From Patiria pectinifera (taxonomy: Eukaryota; Echinodermata; Asteroidea; Valvatida; Asterinidae): DNA of 64,000 nt. This document shows positions 35,845 through 43,921 of this stretch, piece after piece. The notes beneath the pieces are model-generated. The model ran no database searches and was not told the DNA's origin. It worked only from the letters and a program-made list of their open reading frames with translations. Every line of letters begins with the position of its first letter. The first letter of the stretch is position 1. Where the stretch lies: assembly GCA_029964075.1 (NCBI GenBank), contig CM057147.1, forward strand, positions 26,929,513-26,993,512. The letters are read 5' to 3'. The position numbers and the translations under genes were made by a program.

Positions 35845-35998
35845 ATGAGTGATGTCCCAGCGTTGCTGGTGCCCCCCACCCCGGGAAAACCCAACTTTAT
35901 TGACGAATCTCCCATGTCCTCTCTCTCTCTCTCTCTTCCGGTGAAGTACAGTCCACCATCTGGTGTATTACGTACTGCGGTTGCTGTGTGCATGCAAG
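35845..35998 (+). CDS. Candidate first coding exon of an unidentified gene
   Basis: An ATG frame of 51 codons starts MSDVPALLVPPTPGKPNFID. It runs into a strong donor (GCAAG|GTGAGG) at 35999, with one base of the next codon before it. The composition looks protein-coding, and it stands about 670 bases from the divergent POLR2J start, as expected for a shared promoter region. I do not recognise the protein and found no further exons. The alternative is chance coding within the 3' flank of the adjacent LINE, which includes a CT microsatellite here. Confidence 0.35.
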
Positions 35999-36066
35999 GT
36001 GAGGATATATACAGTGCAGGTGATCAGCTTAAACATAAGGTGCGGCTAAAAACAACTCAGGCTGAC

Positions 36067-38328
36067 TTAGCGGAGCTGGACTGACTGCACACCCTGCTTG
36101 AAGCTTGCAAGCGATGTGCAGTTGACGAGATCTTGTGGAAGGGTGTTCCAAATTCTGATGCTATCCGGGAAGAATGACTGCCGATATACCCCAATCCTGG
36201 TGAATGGTACTAGGTATCTGAGGGAGTGACCTCTCAGGGCAACTGTTGGTATCAGGTAGGTATGTGGGACATCAACCAGGTTGTTGACAATTCGGAACAT
36301 CATCACTGCCTTGGCCTGTGCACGCCGTTCTTGAAGGGTGGGCCACTGGAGCTGATTGATCATGGCAGTGACACTGCTGGTGGTCCTGTAGTCCCCAAAC
36401 ACGAAGCGTACATAACGCCGTTGCACCATCTCCAGCTTTTGGATGTTGCTTGCTGTCAGGGGGTCCCATATGATGCAAGAGTATTCAACTATAGGGCGTA
36501 CTAAAGCCTTGTAGCACAGCTCCTTTGTTTTTCTAGGACACTGATGGATATTACGTTGCAAGAAAGCCCTGGTAGAATTTGCTTTGTTGGTAATGCTATT
36601 GATGTGATGGTTCCAGTTCAGGTTTTTGTGGATGTTGACGCCGAGGTATTTTGCAGAGTCAACCTCTTCTAGTACGTGGTTGTGAATGATGTACGGCTGT
36701 TTGATGAGTTTCCTTTTGTTGGTTATGTGGATGACCTGACACTTCTGTGGATGAAACTCCATCTGCCAATCCTTCTCCCATTGCTGAAGGTGGTCCAAGT
36801 CCTGCTGCAATAAACTTGCATCTTCCTCTGTCTTGATGGTGCGATACAGGACACAGTCGTCCGCAAATAATCTGGCTGTTGTGCCCACTGAAGTGCAGTC
36901 AGGAAGATCGTTTATGAAAAGCAGGAACAGCAGTGGGCCCAGAACACTCCCTTGAGGAACCCCTGATATGACTGGTGCAGATTTGGATGTAGTTCCATCC
37001 AGGATGACTTGTTGAGTGCGGTTCTCTAGGAATGCGCTTACCCATATGTTGATATTACCATCAATACCGTAGTAGTTGAGCTTGTGGAGTAACCTTTGAT
37101 GTGGCACCTTATCAAAGGCCTTTGAGAAGTCTAATAGTATGACATCTACTTGGCCTTTGCAATCTACAGTGTTGGCAAGATCTTGTAGGGTGAGCAACAA
37201 TTGGGTATCACAAGAGCGACGTTTTCTGAAACCGAACTGTGCATCGGTGAGGATGTTATTCTTGTCCAGATGATTCAGGATTTAACTACACAACACATGC
37301 TCGAGCATCTTGCAGATGACGGAGGTCAGTGATCTTGGTCTATAATTCACAGCCTTATTTCGTTCCCCCTTTTTAAAGACGGGAACGACGTTCGCTTCCT
37401 TCCATTCTTGTGGCAAGATGCCTTGGTTGATGGAGGCTTGGTAGAATAAGGCAAGTACTGGAGCTAGTGCGTTTGATAACTCCTTCAATAGCCTGGGAGG
37501 AATACCGTCTGGGCCTGATGCCTTGTGGATGTTTAGGCCATTGAGCAACTTTCTGACACCATCAATTGACACCGTGATAGAGTCCATCGATGGAAATGGG
37601 CAAGGACCTTTATCCTTGATGGTTGACTTATCCTCATTTCTGTTGAAGACTGATGAGAATTGATCATTGAGTATGTTTGCTTTGGTTGCACTGTCCGTGT
37701 ATGTTACTCCATTTCTCGCCTTCAGTGGAGAAACGCCAGAGTTATCACATTTCTTGCTGTTGATGAACCCCCAAAATCTCTTGGGGTTTGTTGTTGACTC
37801 AGGGGAAATAATGTTGTTGATGTACTCACTATAGGCATGTTTACAGGCTGATCTTGTCGTCTTCTTCAGTTGGTGATAACGCTGAAAATCTCTGGCTTTC
37901 TGTGTTTTCTTGGCCTTGGTGAAGCTACGCTTTTTACGTCTTGTCAAACGCTTTACTTTCCTTGTGATCCATGGTTGGTTTAACCTGGTGGATGACATCT
38001 TGGAGGGCACACCATTGTCAAGGATCTTCAATAATGATGACTTAATGTCTGCCCACATCTGGGGAATTGGGCTGTTGACATTGTACTTGCTCACAAACTC
38101 GCGCTGGAAATTGTGACACTCCTCCTTCATGCCATCAACACTGGCCTTATTCCACAGATGGATTTTTCGCCTCACTGGAATGTTCCTCTTTGGTGTAATG
38201 CTAGATTCTGTGTATACAATGTCATGATCGCCGAGACCTGGCAGAGGAGCACATTTATTAACCAAGGAGGGGCGGTTGGTAAGAAAGACATCCAGTGTCT
38301 TATCTCCTCTAGTTGAAAATGTGACCAT
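36067..38328 (-). pseudogene. LINE ORF, 3' portion: end of endonuclease plus reverse transcriptase
   Basis: This holds the rest of the endonuclease (GLGDHDIVYTE, with the conserved SDH-like site as GDHD) and then a basic linker. The reverse transcriptase follows, with motifs HKASGPDGIPPRLLKEL, ILLDFSKAFDKVPH (A), GVPQGSVLGPLLF (B), LFADDCVLY (C, catalytic Asp pair) and KYLGVNI. A TAA at 37282-37284 interrupts it in frame, between EHVLCS and ILNHLDKNNILTDAQFGFRK. The frame is otherwise open to the C-terminal WNTLP segment typical of these elements. Confidence 0.9.
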
Positions 38329-39520
38329 TTAATCCACAGTTTTGGATGAACTCAAGAAATCTCTCATTCAGTCGACAAGAATATTGGTTGCGATCGACAG
38401 CCAGCAGATCCCAGTTGATATCTGGAAGATTGACATCTCCACCAATCCAGAGCACCGCATTTTTGAATTTGCGGGCAAGTTCTTCAACACAGGAGCACAA
38501 TGCGTTCAGATATTGGGCATCACTGCTGGGAGGACGATACATGCCACCTATAATGAGGGTCTTATCTTTTGCCATGGTGAACTTAGCAAAGATACATTCG
38601 GCATCCACATCAACTTCAACACGATCATAGACAAGGTCTTTTCTGATGGCAAGAAGGACTCCACCATAACCATCACTGCGGTCCTTCCGAATGACATCAA
38701 AATTTGGTGGAAAGATTTCCGATGAGTGTATACAACTGTTCAGCCAGGTTTCAGTACCGATGATGATGGTTGGATCAGAAGAATCAATTAAATTGATTAT
38801 GTCTTCCTTTTTGTTCTTTGCACTTTGGAAATTGACAGTTAACACTTTCATGTTCACAGGTTTTTTGTTGGTAGATTTGGGTATTGGTGATGAGCATGAC
38901 AGTGGTGGTCCTGGACTTGCGATAGGGGTGGGGTTATAACTCGCAGTTGGGTTACTACTGTCACTAGTATCTAGATGAGAAAACGAATTGGTGGTATCTA
39001 CAGTGAATGACTCGAATAGGCCGGAAGAAAAATTGGGCATGCCACAGTTTACACAGTGCCATGAGACATTGTTGAGTGTCATATACACTGGGGTGGACAT
39101 ATGCATGCAGTCGGCATGGTACCATTGTTGACAGTCATCACAAGCAACCCCTCGTTGCTTCCATGTTACTGCACGACTACATATCTGGCATGGGTACTTG
39201 CAGGTCTGCGGACCTGGGTTCAGCTCGACATCTGGGGCATTAACCAAGAGCAGTAAGCTTAGGTACAGGAGAGTGTGGGTTTTCTTCTCTCTGACACTAG
39301 CAGAAGCAGTGTTGAGCTTTCTTGAAAAGGCTGCAACAATTATCTCATCATTGACATTGAGATGGTCATGAGGTGTAACAGAAGAACAGACTATGCCGAG
39401 GTGTTCAACGAAATGTTCCTGCTGATGTTTGTAGATGAAGTTGATGAATATTATGCCCAGTAATACATAGAAAGCATTTCTAGCCATGGCTAACATATTT
39501 GCCTCTGACGAAGTAGGCAA
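38309..39520 (-). pseudogene. LINE ORF, 5' portion: leader, 2A, PHD finger, endonuclease start
   Basis: The 403 residues comprise a hydrophobic segment (about 16-30), a second hydrophobic run (about 84-93) leading straight into DVELNPGP (97-104), and a PHD finger. The finger has Cys111/114, Cys127/130, His135, Cys138 and Cys156/159. A Pro/Ser linker and an APE-type endonuclease from about residue 224 follow (ETW with Glu257, then GGDVNLPDINW). The frame is lost at the end, where the same endonuclease resumes in another frame from 38328. Confidence 0.9.
39209..39232 (-). other. 2A-like ribosome-skipping motif DVELNPGP in the LINE ORF
   Basis: The eight residues fit the 2A consensus D-V/I-E-x-N-P-G-P exactly. 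They are preceded by a leucine-rich hydrophobic run. In known 2A sequences the ribosome skips the bond between the final Gly and Pro, releasing the upstream peptide. Confidence 0.85.
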
Positions 39521-39572
39521 TGCATAGAAAGAAAGAAAAGGAATCTCTCACCAATGTCACTCCAGTCTTCTT

Positions 39573-40280
39573 ACGTCTGGGGTCTAGACACAGTCTAGGC
39601 TGAGGTGTTAAATTCTGTAGACAGGCACCAGACTAAATCTAGGTGTGGCAGGATGGGTGTCAAAAATGACTCCATAAATGACTCAATCACTGAATAAGAC
39701 TCCAAATGATGAAACGCACACAGGAAAAGACAAACCTGGGATGAAGTAGGGTTTAACTATCCCAGAATATCCAGGTGGAAATGCAGGCTGGGGTTTGAAA
39801 ACCGAGTTCAGTCACTCACGTCTGGGGTCTAGACACAGACTAGGCTGAGGTGTTAAATTCTGTAGACAAGCACCAGACTAAATCTAAGTGTGGCAGGATG
39901 GGCGACAAAAATGAGTCTAAAAATGACTCATTAGGACTCCAAATGATGAAAGGCACACAAGAAAAGACAATCCTGGGATGAAGTAGGGTTTAACTATCCC
40001 AGAATATCCAGGTGGAAATGCAGGCTGGGGTTTGAAAACCGAGTTCAGTCACTCACGTCTGGGGTCTAGACACAGACTAGGCTGAGGTGTTAAATTCTGT
40101 AGACAGGCACCAGACTAAATCTAAGTGTGGCAGGATGGGTGACAAAAAATGACTCTAAAAATGACTCATTAGGACTCCAAATGATGAAAGGCACACAAGA
40201 AAAGACAATCCTGGGATCAAATAGGGTTTAACTATCCCAAAGATCCAAATGAAGATGCGGGTTGGAGTTGGAAAAATGTG
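39573..40280 (-). repeat. Three ~240-bp tandem repeats upstream of the LINE ORF
   Basis: Copies start with ACGTCTGGGGTCTAGACACA at 39573, 39818 and 40055 (spacings 245 and 237 bases). They match along nearly their whole length, the third fading near 40280. They lie just upstream of the LINE frame in its own orientation. Confidence 0.88.
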
Positions 40281-40509
40281 AAAATATGCACTTTTTTCAC
40301 GAGCCCATGCACAACACGTCCAACACCTAAGCATACACACAACACTCAGGCTCAGTCCTGAGCCTAGTGAGCTGGATATTTCAACTTCAAGCTAGTCACG
40401 AGCCAAGTTAGAGCTGGGTTTTCAAAGCTAGGTATGATTATGTGTGAATCTTGCAGAATTGAAGTGGAAAGAAAGCAGCAGAAAGTGATTGTTATTGTTA
40501 TTGCACAAG

Positions 40510-40702: not shown

Positions 40703-41148
40703 ACAAGAGTGTATTTACATCCGTTTACACTTTGGCAAATTGGATGTGACTCTTCGTTATTTAATTATGCGTACATGAAGGTCCAGAACATAAATGGTCA
40801 TAATTTTTATTAGTACCAGAAATGAAAATAGTAAGAAATTCAAAAATAAACAAAAAGGCACTGTTGTCAGGACCTACACATTTACTTAAATGTTGAGGTT
40901 GGGGTAAATTTCGATAAAAAATATGTTGAGAAATAATGTCCACTCCAGGCTAATGTATGCTTATGTGGTTTTTTGACACAGGATTGCCGATCTGTCACTG
41001 TCAGGTTTTTTTGTCAAAATGAAATAATTTATTCCTTGAAATTATTTCTTCAACAGAATCATGCATCCTTCGAAGAACAGTCATCAATCCAAGTTTGTCT
41101 CGGTATTAAAATAGTGCTATCAGTCTCCAGACACTGCACATTTCCAAC

Positions 41149-41670
41149 ATGAGAACATTTTACATCAACCCCAACCTGCGCTGGCTGATCCTAGCAGTTC
41201 TGGCCTTCCTACCGTTCTTCCTGGTCCTGCGTTCCATAACGGTCTCCGCTCCAGGGGAGGAGCCAGTGGCCGGGATGGGGGGCAAGACCTCAAACGACAG
41301 GGTGCAGCAGCTGGAGGTGGCCGTGGTCGAGCTGCAGAAACAGCTGGCGGAGGAGAAAGATCTGGAGAAGGATTTGATGGATACGCTGCACAAGTACAAG
41401 AAGCTCGTCGTCAAACGAAGCCACGCCCCGGGGGCAGCCCCACCCAGTCCACTCCCCGAGGGCAAGTTCCTGGACTGCCAAGCGATCGACCGGATTCAGA
41501 TCACGCAGCAGATTGCCAGAGGTTACAGCAAGGTGGTGCAGGAAGGGAAACTAGGCGATAAGCACTATGCTGTGAAGAGCAGCAGTTATGACGTGAAGAA
41601 CGTGAAGGATTGCGTGCTGGGCGGGACGTACAAGAAGAAAGAAGACTGTTTTATCCTTGGGACATATCAG
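41149..41670 (+). CDS. PKDCC-like exon 1 (anchor, coiled coil, kinase N-lobe start)
   Basis: The ATG at 41149 is followed directly by the hydrophobic segment; upstream the frame is closed by stops. The exon ends GGGACATATCAG|GTATTTGG in phase 0. Confidence 0.85.
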
Positions 41671-43921
41671 GTATTTGGTTAGAATAGACCAGCAGCCGAT
41701 TTCCCGAAACAGTGCTAAACTTACGCCATGTGTAGGACTAACGATCAATTTCATGAAACTTGGTGTAGCTGCGAAATGTTTTAAATAGTTAACATCTTGG
41801 ACGAGGAATGTAACAGCATTTATGACGGCTGTTTGTGTATGATTTTGTTCATTCATGAAACAGTCGTTGAAACAGTCCTTGAATCACTTCCGCCCTCCAT
41901 TTTGAAAATAATTTTGTCGGACGTTCTTCAACTCTAAAAGCTCTGTCACGAGTAAAATAGCAGATCTTTTACTTCGAACACAAAGCTGTGAGTGTGTTGT
42001 ATCAACCTTGATAAGTTGTGCAATAACAGACACCACGACGATCACAATTTGCTGGTAAAACTAGTTCATTTTCAGTTGCTATGCCACAAAGTTATGCCAC
42101 CTAAAATGATTGCACAAGTTAATTGGTTGCGCAAGTCGCGCCATAATTTGTTGTGGGGGCATAGGATAGTTTGCAGCAAAAAGGCTTCTAGTGACACTTA
42201 ACAAGGGTTGAACAATTTCTTTTCCTTCTGTCAATTTGTGTAAACTCTCATCACGCAGGTCCTAAAGGAAGCTATGATGCTGAAGCAGCTCCAGCATCCC
42301 AACATCGTCCGGCTTCTGGGTCTGTGCGTACGCAGCGAGAACAGCAGTCCCATCATTCATGAGCGAGGAGTGACTGTGGTTGAGGAGCTGGGCGCTCCGG
42401 TGCTGCTACGTGATCTGACCGAGATGGACTTCAGGGCCAAGATAGAAGTAAGGCCAGCTCTAAACCTCATGCAACTACCATGCCGAACTGGCAAACTCCA
42501 GTGATTTGAGCTTGGCAGTAGCTTGGCAACAGTTGCTCTGAACAAGTCAAATTAAATTCAACTAGAGTACCTTGCCATTTGAAAGCAGTCCAGTGCACTT
42601 TCATCTCAATCAAGTTTTCACTCCCTGTGATGCAGATTCGAGAGGTTAATTGTGAGCATCAGCATTCCTTAACTGTTTGCCCTAACTTTGAATTAAATTG
42701 AGTTTGTCATGCCACCGCCGCTTGGAACAACGATAGCATGGCAGACCCTGTTGAGCCAAAGGGCGGTGCCGTTCCGAACTCAATTTGCTGAGATTAAAAA
42801 AAAACTGATATGAAACTCCACAGATTCAATAAACTAATATGAATTTCCCCCTCATCCTATGTACTTTAGATTTGCCTCGATCTAGCCAGACTTCTCCAGT
42901 ACCTTGTTGACTCCCCTATGGGCAGTGTCGCCATCACTGATTGGAGGGACGAACAGTTTGTCTTCGTCGCTGGAACGTTAAAAATTGCCGACGTGGACGG
43001 ACTGAACAGCAAAGAGCCGTCTTGCAATAAAGAAATGAAGTGCCTTATCAATGATATGCCTTCTGGTAAGTCATATAATTCGCCGTCAACAGGATGATAT
43101 TATGAGGGGCATTTGCATAGCCACGGGATCACACACCGCCAAAGATGGTGACCACTCGCTATATAGAGTGCTGATTATGCGAAACACTGCATTTTGACCT
43201 CGAGATTCTGACCATTCTGTGGTTGCCTTCTATCATGTCTTCGGTAACCCGATGTTGTATGACAAAAGCATGACAGCTATTGACCAATCAACAGCTTGGG
43301 CAAACTTTCTACTCTAAAACAATGTCACAACTTCTAAGGGCGGCTCTGATTGGCTGGCGTGCGGGGTCGCATGAAATGTACATGTACCTGTATTTCAGAC
43401 GTTTGTAGTGTATGATCAATCGGCAGGGATTTTATGTATTGCTGTGTTTGTAAACTACGATGGCAGACCTGTTCTGATACCGATTTTTAAGTTGGCAGGA
43501 AGTTCAAATTGTCCTGTTTTTATGGAGCTAATTTTCTCAAAGCATTTTAAAAATTTAGTGAAATTCCCCCACCCCCCACAAAAAAAAAACAAAAAAAATA
43601 TCAAGGTTGATTCTTATATTGCTTGTTTGCCCTTGCATTTTCCATTAAGGTTTAAGATGTGCCAAGAACATGGAGTGTCCCGGCACCAACGCCAAGACCA
43701 ACCTCCTCCATGCACGGCACCACTTCCTGGAGCCCATGCTAGGCTCGGGCATCCCCGTGGAGTACCTTGCCAAGGCCTCGGCCCTCCTGACGGACCTACA
43801 GAAGGACAATCTGGATGCGGACGACCTGGTGGAGCGTCTTGAAGACCTGCTCAAGTTCGCTGACACGGTGACCAAAGTGCCGCCTCTGGAGGTAGACCCA
43901 AGAGACTTGGATTACTACTGA
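41149..43921 (+). CDS. PKDCC/VLK-like secretory-pathway protein kinase, complete four-exon gene (392 aa)
   Basis: Vertebrate PKDCC (VLK) is a secreted kinase that phosphorylates tyrosines on extracellular and secretory-pathway proteins. Exons 41149-41670, 42259-42447, 42870-43065 and 43650-43921 join in frame. The product has a single hydrophobic anchor or signal at about 12-28 (type II layout), a predicted coiled coil (about 48-85) and then the kinase fold. AVK (Lys143) corresponds to the ATP-binding Lys and LKEAMML (Glu178) to the helix-C Glu. ELGAPV and ICLDLARLLQYLVDSPMGSV match PKDCC closely. The catalytic loop reads TDWRDEQ (Asp261) and the DFG position IADVDG (Asp278). All key residues are kept, so activity is likely. 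It ends about 100 residues short of vertebrate PKDCC, lacking the Cys-rich C-terminal part. Orthology to PKDCC is likely but not certain within the wider family. Confidence 0.85.
42259..42447 (+). CDS. PKDCC-like exon 2 (helix C to hinge)
   Basis: After the acceptor CATCACGCAG it encodes VLKEAMMLKQLQHPNIVRLL and VVEELGAPVLLRDL. The donor is GAA|GTAAGG. Confidence 0.9.
42870..43065 (+). CDS. PKDCC-like exon 3 (catalytic loop and DFG region)
   Basis: The acceptor is TGTACTTTAG. The exon encodes ICLDLARLLQYLV, TDWRDEQFVFV and LKIADVDGL, with cysteines in SCNKEMKC. It ends TCTG|GTAAGT in phase 1. Confidence 0.9.
43650..43921 (+). CDS. PKDCC-like exon 4 (last exon)
   Basis: After TTCCATTAAG it encodes GLRCAKNMECPGTNAKTNLL and a helical C-terminal lobe, ending DPRDLDYY and TGA at 43919-43921. 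Confidence 0.88.

Follow-up and report, generated by a model that had tools for sequence, protein, structure and literature searches.

2A-like sequences have been reported in APE-type non-LTR retrotransposons (Odon et al. 2013, as cited in PMC4981915 and PMC12846837), and the element described here is likewise an APE-type LINE with a 2A octapeptide. Viral and retrotransposon 2As are described in the available text of PMC4981915 as internal to proteins or polyproteins, whereas in the present element the 2A forms the end of a short leader with an N-terminal signal-like segment of its own. The hydrophobic N-terminal 2A of sea urchin NLR proteins (SpNLR2A; available text of PMC4981915) can act as a signal, and one LINE family in the present genome (L017) has a similar geometry. 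However, in SpNLR2A the 26-residue 2A is itself the signal, targeting requires a failed skip, and the cargo is an NLR (NACHT), whereas here the signal-like core is separate from the 2A and is expected to emerge ahead of the skip, the order of events that we propose is different, and a PHD-endonuclease-reverse transcriptase (PHD-EN-RT) protein lies downstream. CR1 subgroup 6 and L2 subgroup 4 elements (PMC4120745) share with the present element an N-terminal PHD finger on a single EN-RT open reading frame (ORF) and a repetitive 5' region; the main text of that paper, as available, lacks the terms signal peptide and transmembrane, and the passages available do not mention 2A. The esterase-type ORF1p of CR1/L2 LINEs such as ZfL2-1 (available text of PMC3905857) is also a proposed membrane-targeting LINE module, but it is a folded lipid-binding esterase, whereas here there is a short hydrophobic leader and the esterase is absent. 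Three ingredients are thus already known separately: 2A in LINEs, the PHD finger of CR1/L2 LINEs, and peptides that combine signal and 2A. What appears to be new in the literature searched is a leader with an early signal that recurs as a module of LINEs; no description of a LINE leader whose signal is distinct from its 2A was found there, although Odon 2013, Luke 2014, or Rao 2025 may contain one.

The window analyzed is a 64,000-nucleotide stretch of Patiria pectinifera DNA (assembly GCA_029964075.1, contig CM057147.1, positions 26,929,513 to 26,993,512). It contains a whole LINE insertion of ∼4.42 kb on the minus strand (35919..40343), the strand of all of the element's features given below, with its ends placed by the ends shared among copies. 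The 5' end at 40339-40344 was common to five copies (L011 to L015), and 34 of 45 matches to the 3' part used as the query ended at query positions 472 to 482, which correspond to window positions 35919-35929. The starts of the 3'-part matches were spread from 1 to 433, as for 5'-truncated copies with one 3' end. The 5' untranslated region (UTR) carries tandem repeats with a unit of ∼237 nucleotides (39570..40275), and the 3' tail is (AG)n (35919..35936). Exons of an apparent membrane-anchored kinase gene, recognized by frame reading, lie on the plus strand by the 5' end of the LINE (41110-43060).

The 5' part of the ORF, from the first Met, comprises the leader, the 2A, a PHD finger, and the start of the endonuclease (38309..39496). 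It lies in a stop-to-stop frame of 412 amino acids (38309-39547), with the first Met at 39496 and a second Met at residue 4 (39487) in the context GCCATGG. A signal-anchor-like N-terminal hydrophobic core occupies residues 11 to 22 (39431..39466; mean Kyte-Doolittle value of 2.52 over 12 residues). The Leu-rich upstream part of the 2A (39233..39280) is followed by the 2A/StopGo octapeptide DVELNPGP (39209..39232), which fits the motif D(V/I)ExNPGP, just as a first-pass annotation of this sequence had noted, with the skip predicted between G and P. The same annotation had remarked on two hydrophobic segments upstream of the skip. Both are present, but the second, beside the 2A (mean Kyte-Doolittle value of 2.25), belongs to the 2A as its normal upstream part and is thus not an independent feature. 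The leader had been put at 104 residues; counted from the first Met through the G of NPG, it has 95.

The PHD finger (C4HC3; 39044..39190) is complete and ahead of the endonuclease, as had been described, and scored 29.6 bits against PF00628, compared with a Pfam cut-off of 24; a PDB search identified Pygopus PHD fingers as its best solved relatives. The first part of an APE-type endonuclease (38309..38851) gave a partial match to PF14529 below the cut-off, with the rest of the domain in another frame. A second open stretch (37282..38328) holds the rest of the endonuclease, a linker, and the start of the reverse transcriptase, with domains assigned by match to the relative L011, and a third (36067..37281) holds the reverse transcriptase (PF00078, 108.2 bits). 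Because the open frame changes twice (∼38309-38328 and 37281/37282), the window copy is broken; it is complete at both ends but frameshifted. The first-pass annotation had suggested seeking intact copies, and a candidate is L011 on C18, whose open frame spans 1161 codons; the 891 residues of it that were scanned carry PHD, EN, and RT. The PHD finger precedes the endonuclease within the single ORF, and in one L011 frame the endonuclease (PF14529, 35.6 bits versus a cut-off of 27.4) and the reverse transcriptase are both above their cut-offs. The element is an APE-type, single-ORF, PHD-bearing LINE, CR1/L2-like by architecture.

Seven leader-bearing copies of this family, including the window's, were found, with leader identities of 97 to 100%. 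DVELNPGP was kept in all seven and degraded in none of them. When L009, L010, L012, L013, L014, and L015 (in that order) were compared with L011, there were 0, 0, 3, 5, 2, and 0 changes in 285 leader sites; 6, 3, 6, 10, 8, and 6 changes in ∼351 sites of the PHD finger plus linker; and 1, 1, 2, 17, 33, and 31 changes in 200 nucleotides of the 5' UTR. In five of the six copies the leader had changed less than any of the other three segments compared, although the counts are small. The exception was L012, in which leader change (3/285) was slightly above that of the 5' UTR (2/200) and the endonuclease (4/525) and below that of the PHD finger plus linker (6/351). Exchange of 5' UTRs between subfamilies may have taken place. 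An origin of the leader from a host gene was considered and rejected; genome-wide, the window leader as a query matched only its own seven family copies.

Across the 613.5-Mb genome, a degenerate DNA pattern for the 2A octapeptide matched exactly at 59 places and its reversed control at none; 51 of the 59 places were inspected. A PHD finger was detected in frame with a regular expression in 23 of the 50 2A places L039 to L088. In L053, L078, and L081 an endonuclease followed the 2A without a PHD match, and many other places were short broken frames. Homology searches added families with a 2A that departs from the pattern. Just before the D of the 2A, the window family has a P, and 42 of 60 ORFs have a G. 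L071, L085, L069, L078, L081, L045, and L053 carry a second type of 2A, approximately YYxNSxxTFN...GDIExNPGP; some of these frames have a PHD finger and others do not. L036 and L037 (C11 and C19) represent a related LINE with two tandem PHD-like fingers after a variant 2A, DCHPNPGP, upstream of which the frame has no Met. L057 and L058 (C7, ∼40.97 and 41.14 Mb) have GDIETNPGP after an internal transmembrane-like stretch; this repeated ORF is no recognizable LINE, and L058 had no Pfam match above the cut-off. A link to NLR genes in this genome was rejected: among the 101 listed of 439 NACHT candidates, the nearest was 14.9 kb from any 2A match, and that match belonged to a LINE, as judged from its PHD-like frame. 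No relatives were found in the viral contigs searched.

Sixty 2A ORFs were examined for signal-like leaders, and 26 were dropped for want of an open, Met-started leader of 55 residues. From the remaining 34, one representative of each family was picked by hand, with open and complete leaders preferred. The resulting 17 representatives include L017, restored from among the 26 dropped, as well as L011 and L027, which stand for the window and L042 families and came from outside the 60. A leader was scored as signal-like if a 12-residue stretch without D, E, K, or R and with a mean hydropathy of at least 1.8 lay within the first 45 residues; hydrophobicity is a crude proxy for signal prediction. 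The hydropathy scale and the (-3,-1) rule for signal-peptidase sites are general background.

A signal-like N terminus was present in 15 of the 17 family representatives, compared with 22 of the 212 ORFs in the six-frame control set (Fisher P, 8.7e-12). That set includes 49 unfiltered window ORFs, so that the window's own leader ORF is among the 212. When L017, in which the core is the 2A's own, and L058, which is no recognizable LINE, were left aside, 14 of 15 long LINE leaders were signal-like. L049, whose assignment as a LINE rests on frame reading and not on Pfam, was below the threshold. Shuffle P values combined over 12 representatives, with L042 standing for the L027 family, gave 4e-10 or 6e-12, depending on the choice made. 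The weak rows among those left out (shuffle P, 0.86 for L030, 0.28 for L040, 0.65 to 0.86 for L047, L048, and L066, and 0.81 for L054) were interpreted as related to families already kept, their 5' frames being damaged; because they are among the rows left out, a blind choice would lower the signal-like count. The non-LINE pair L057 and L058 had shuffle P values of 0.995 and 0.963, and L058, which was kept, fails. For the window leader alone the shuffle P was ∼0.08, which is not significant, and 5.2% of control ORFs reached its score. The proposal in the first-pass annotation of a membrane-directed leader thus gains from the 14 of 15 chosen long-leader LINE families and is only suggestive for the window family taken alone.

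The most hydrophobic 12 residues of the leader, with the 2A left out, fell within the first 36 residues in 15 of 15 long leaders; with random placing, 6.9 of 15 would be expected to have the core in the first 45 residues. The G of NPG lay 64 to 144 residues beyond the end of the core in all 15 (73 in the window family) and 10 residues beyond it in L017. The long gap follows in part from the choosing of long leaders, as a core inside the first 45 residues sets a minimum possible gap of 44 to 125. Candidate cleavage sites were present in 13 of the 15 leaders under a loose rule without a control. The (-3,-1) rule gave no candidate signal-peptidase site in L011 or L026, so that in the window family the segment would act as an uncleaved signal anchor. 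A glycosylated ectodomain was considered and rejected, as leader sequons were not enriched (5 versus 6.0 expected). Homology among all leaders was likewise rejected: of 105 leader pairs, only 5 scored better than at least 198 of 200 shuffles, against 1.3 expected, and all 5 fell within three groups. The leaders form ∼11 groups without detectable sequence similarity between groups.

The ribosome tunnel holds 30 to 40 residues (available text of PMC2978324). Because the 73 residues between core and skip site in the window family, and the 64 to 144 residues in the 15 long leaders, exceed this length, the N-terminal hydrophobic segment would be outside the ribosome before the 2A meets the peptidyl-transferase center. 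With the core exposed this early, SRP docking could precede the skip. We therefore favor, with a probability of about 0.6, a reading in which a membrane-directing leader opens the ORF and a 2A/StopGo skip parts it from the PHD-EN-RT enzyme, in the order dock, then release. SRP would first dock the LINE polysome on the endoplasmic reticulum (ER) or nuclear envelope; the skip would then free the enzyme on the cytosolic side, near its mRNA and the nucleus, and the leader would remain in the membrane or pass through it. The reasoning about the ER behind this docking order is general background. The interpretation in the first-pass annotation, in which skipping would release the leader and leave the enzyme free, is partly supported by the open-frame copy, the NPGP kept in all seven copies, the protein constraint on leaders, and the recurrent signal-like N termini. 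In yeast, a protein upstream of a 2A entered the ER and the downstream one was cytosolic (available text of PMC2978324).

It is also possible, but improbable, that the leader acts only on a failed skip, sending some full-length LINE protein to the ER and leaving less free enzyme. Such dual targeting has been described for the NLR 2A signals of Strongylocentrotus purpuratus (available text of PMC4981915), the L017 family fits its geometry with a core 10 residues from NPG, and signal-bearing upstream proteins can inhibit skipping, reducing it in cells (available text of PMC2978324). In all 15 long leaders, however, 64 to 144 residues separate the core from NPG, so that it would already be exposed when the skip occurs. 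In L017, as in the sea urchin NLRs, the core would still be inside the ribosome at that point. This geometry leads us to propose two orders: docking followed by the skip in the long leaders, and either skipping or docking in L017.

If the dock-then-release order is correct, StopGo would be extended from the separation of polyproteins to ordered targeting, with docking first and release afterwards. It would bear on how the ribonucleoproteins of LINEs without ORF1p reach the nucleus; a membrane role has been proposed for the esterase type (available text of PMC3905857). The existence of early-signal leaders in many families, together with a natural leaderless relative, makes the question directly testable with reporters.

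The leaderless relative is a LINE family (L020, L022, and L038, on C7, C5, and C422) without a 2A and without an open Met-started leader, as checked in three frames for L020 and in one each for L022 and L038. L020 and L022 have open frames of 1077 codons. The three copies read T-A-M-P-Y-K-P-K-Y-P-C-G versus N-P-G-P-Y-x-P-K-Y-P-C-G in their relatives, and the beginning of their ORF, ATG-CCC-TAC-AAG-CCT-AAG-TAC, aligns by eye without gaps to the relatives' G-P-Y-x-P-K-Y. The ATG is exactly at the skip site, in place of the G of NPG. Because a quick tree of 15 rows places L020 together with L033 and the window family (SH-aLRT, 97), its state is read as a probable derived loss of leader and 2A. 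This family supports the view that the skip would leave the Pro as the first residue of the working enzyme, and it hints that the leader may be dispensable in some lineage. With leaderless (L020) and short-leader (L017) families both present, not every lineage needs an early signal.

A broader scenario, which we offer only tentatively, is that in many single-ORF LINEs of this genome ORF1p has been replaced by a membrane module, that leaders differing in sequence have been repeatedly acquired or remade under the single constraint of early docking followed by release, and that the module can be shed via a start codon at the skip site. The existence of a leaderless family with 1077-codon open frames would also suit a hydrophobic N terminus that is a by-product of a long 2A context or of translation control at the level of the leader, with no membrane role, and full activity of the FMDV 2A needs >30 residues of native sequence (available text of PMC12846837). 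We regard this explanation as very unlikely, given a recurrent core that lies 64 to 144 residues away, beyond the tunnel, and is N-terminal far more often than in controls.

The first-pass annotation had also called for the conservation of the leader to be compared between copies, and between families the leader was found to be under protein constraint. Because leader dN/dS was 0.40 to 0.59 among L071, L085, and L069 and 0.44 for L051/L084, the leader is, as far as substitution patterns can tell, a translated, constrained but fast-evolving protein. Of these four comparisons, dN/dS after the 2A was computable only for L071/L085 (0.11), the others being saturated. In close within-family pairs, leader dN/dS was 0.28 to 0.97 in eight and 2.53 in L056/L069, and only nonsynonymous leader changes were present in L049/L086 (5) and L031/L033 (3); these mixed values were taken as decay after insertion.

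Among L071, L085, and L069, identity was 0.65 to 0.85 in the 2A, 0.34 to 0.54 in the first 35 residues, and 0.28 to 0.41 in the middle of the leader. The first 35 residues and the middle were alike in L051/L084 (0.29 and 0.31) and L044/L070 (0.29 and 0.25). The fast divergence of leader middles (identities of 0.25 to 0.41 in five pairs) next to a better-kept 2A would be expected if the leader were a free-standing accessory peptide, membrane-active or secreted and unrelated to polysome targeting, with the 2A serving only to obtain two proteins per mRNA. The candidate cleavage sites in 13 of 15 leaders, found with a loose rule without a control, point the same way. A common function of such a product is, however, hard to see in leader groups without detectable similarity and without enrichment of sequons, and we consider this explanation quite unlikely.

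DNA homology between L071 and L085 starts at position 1055, with the Met at 1057. In this pair dS was lower in the leader (0.60) than after the 2A (2.4), even though protein identity is the lower in the leader; exchange of 5' parts between families is a possible source of the low leader dS.
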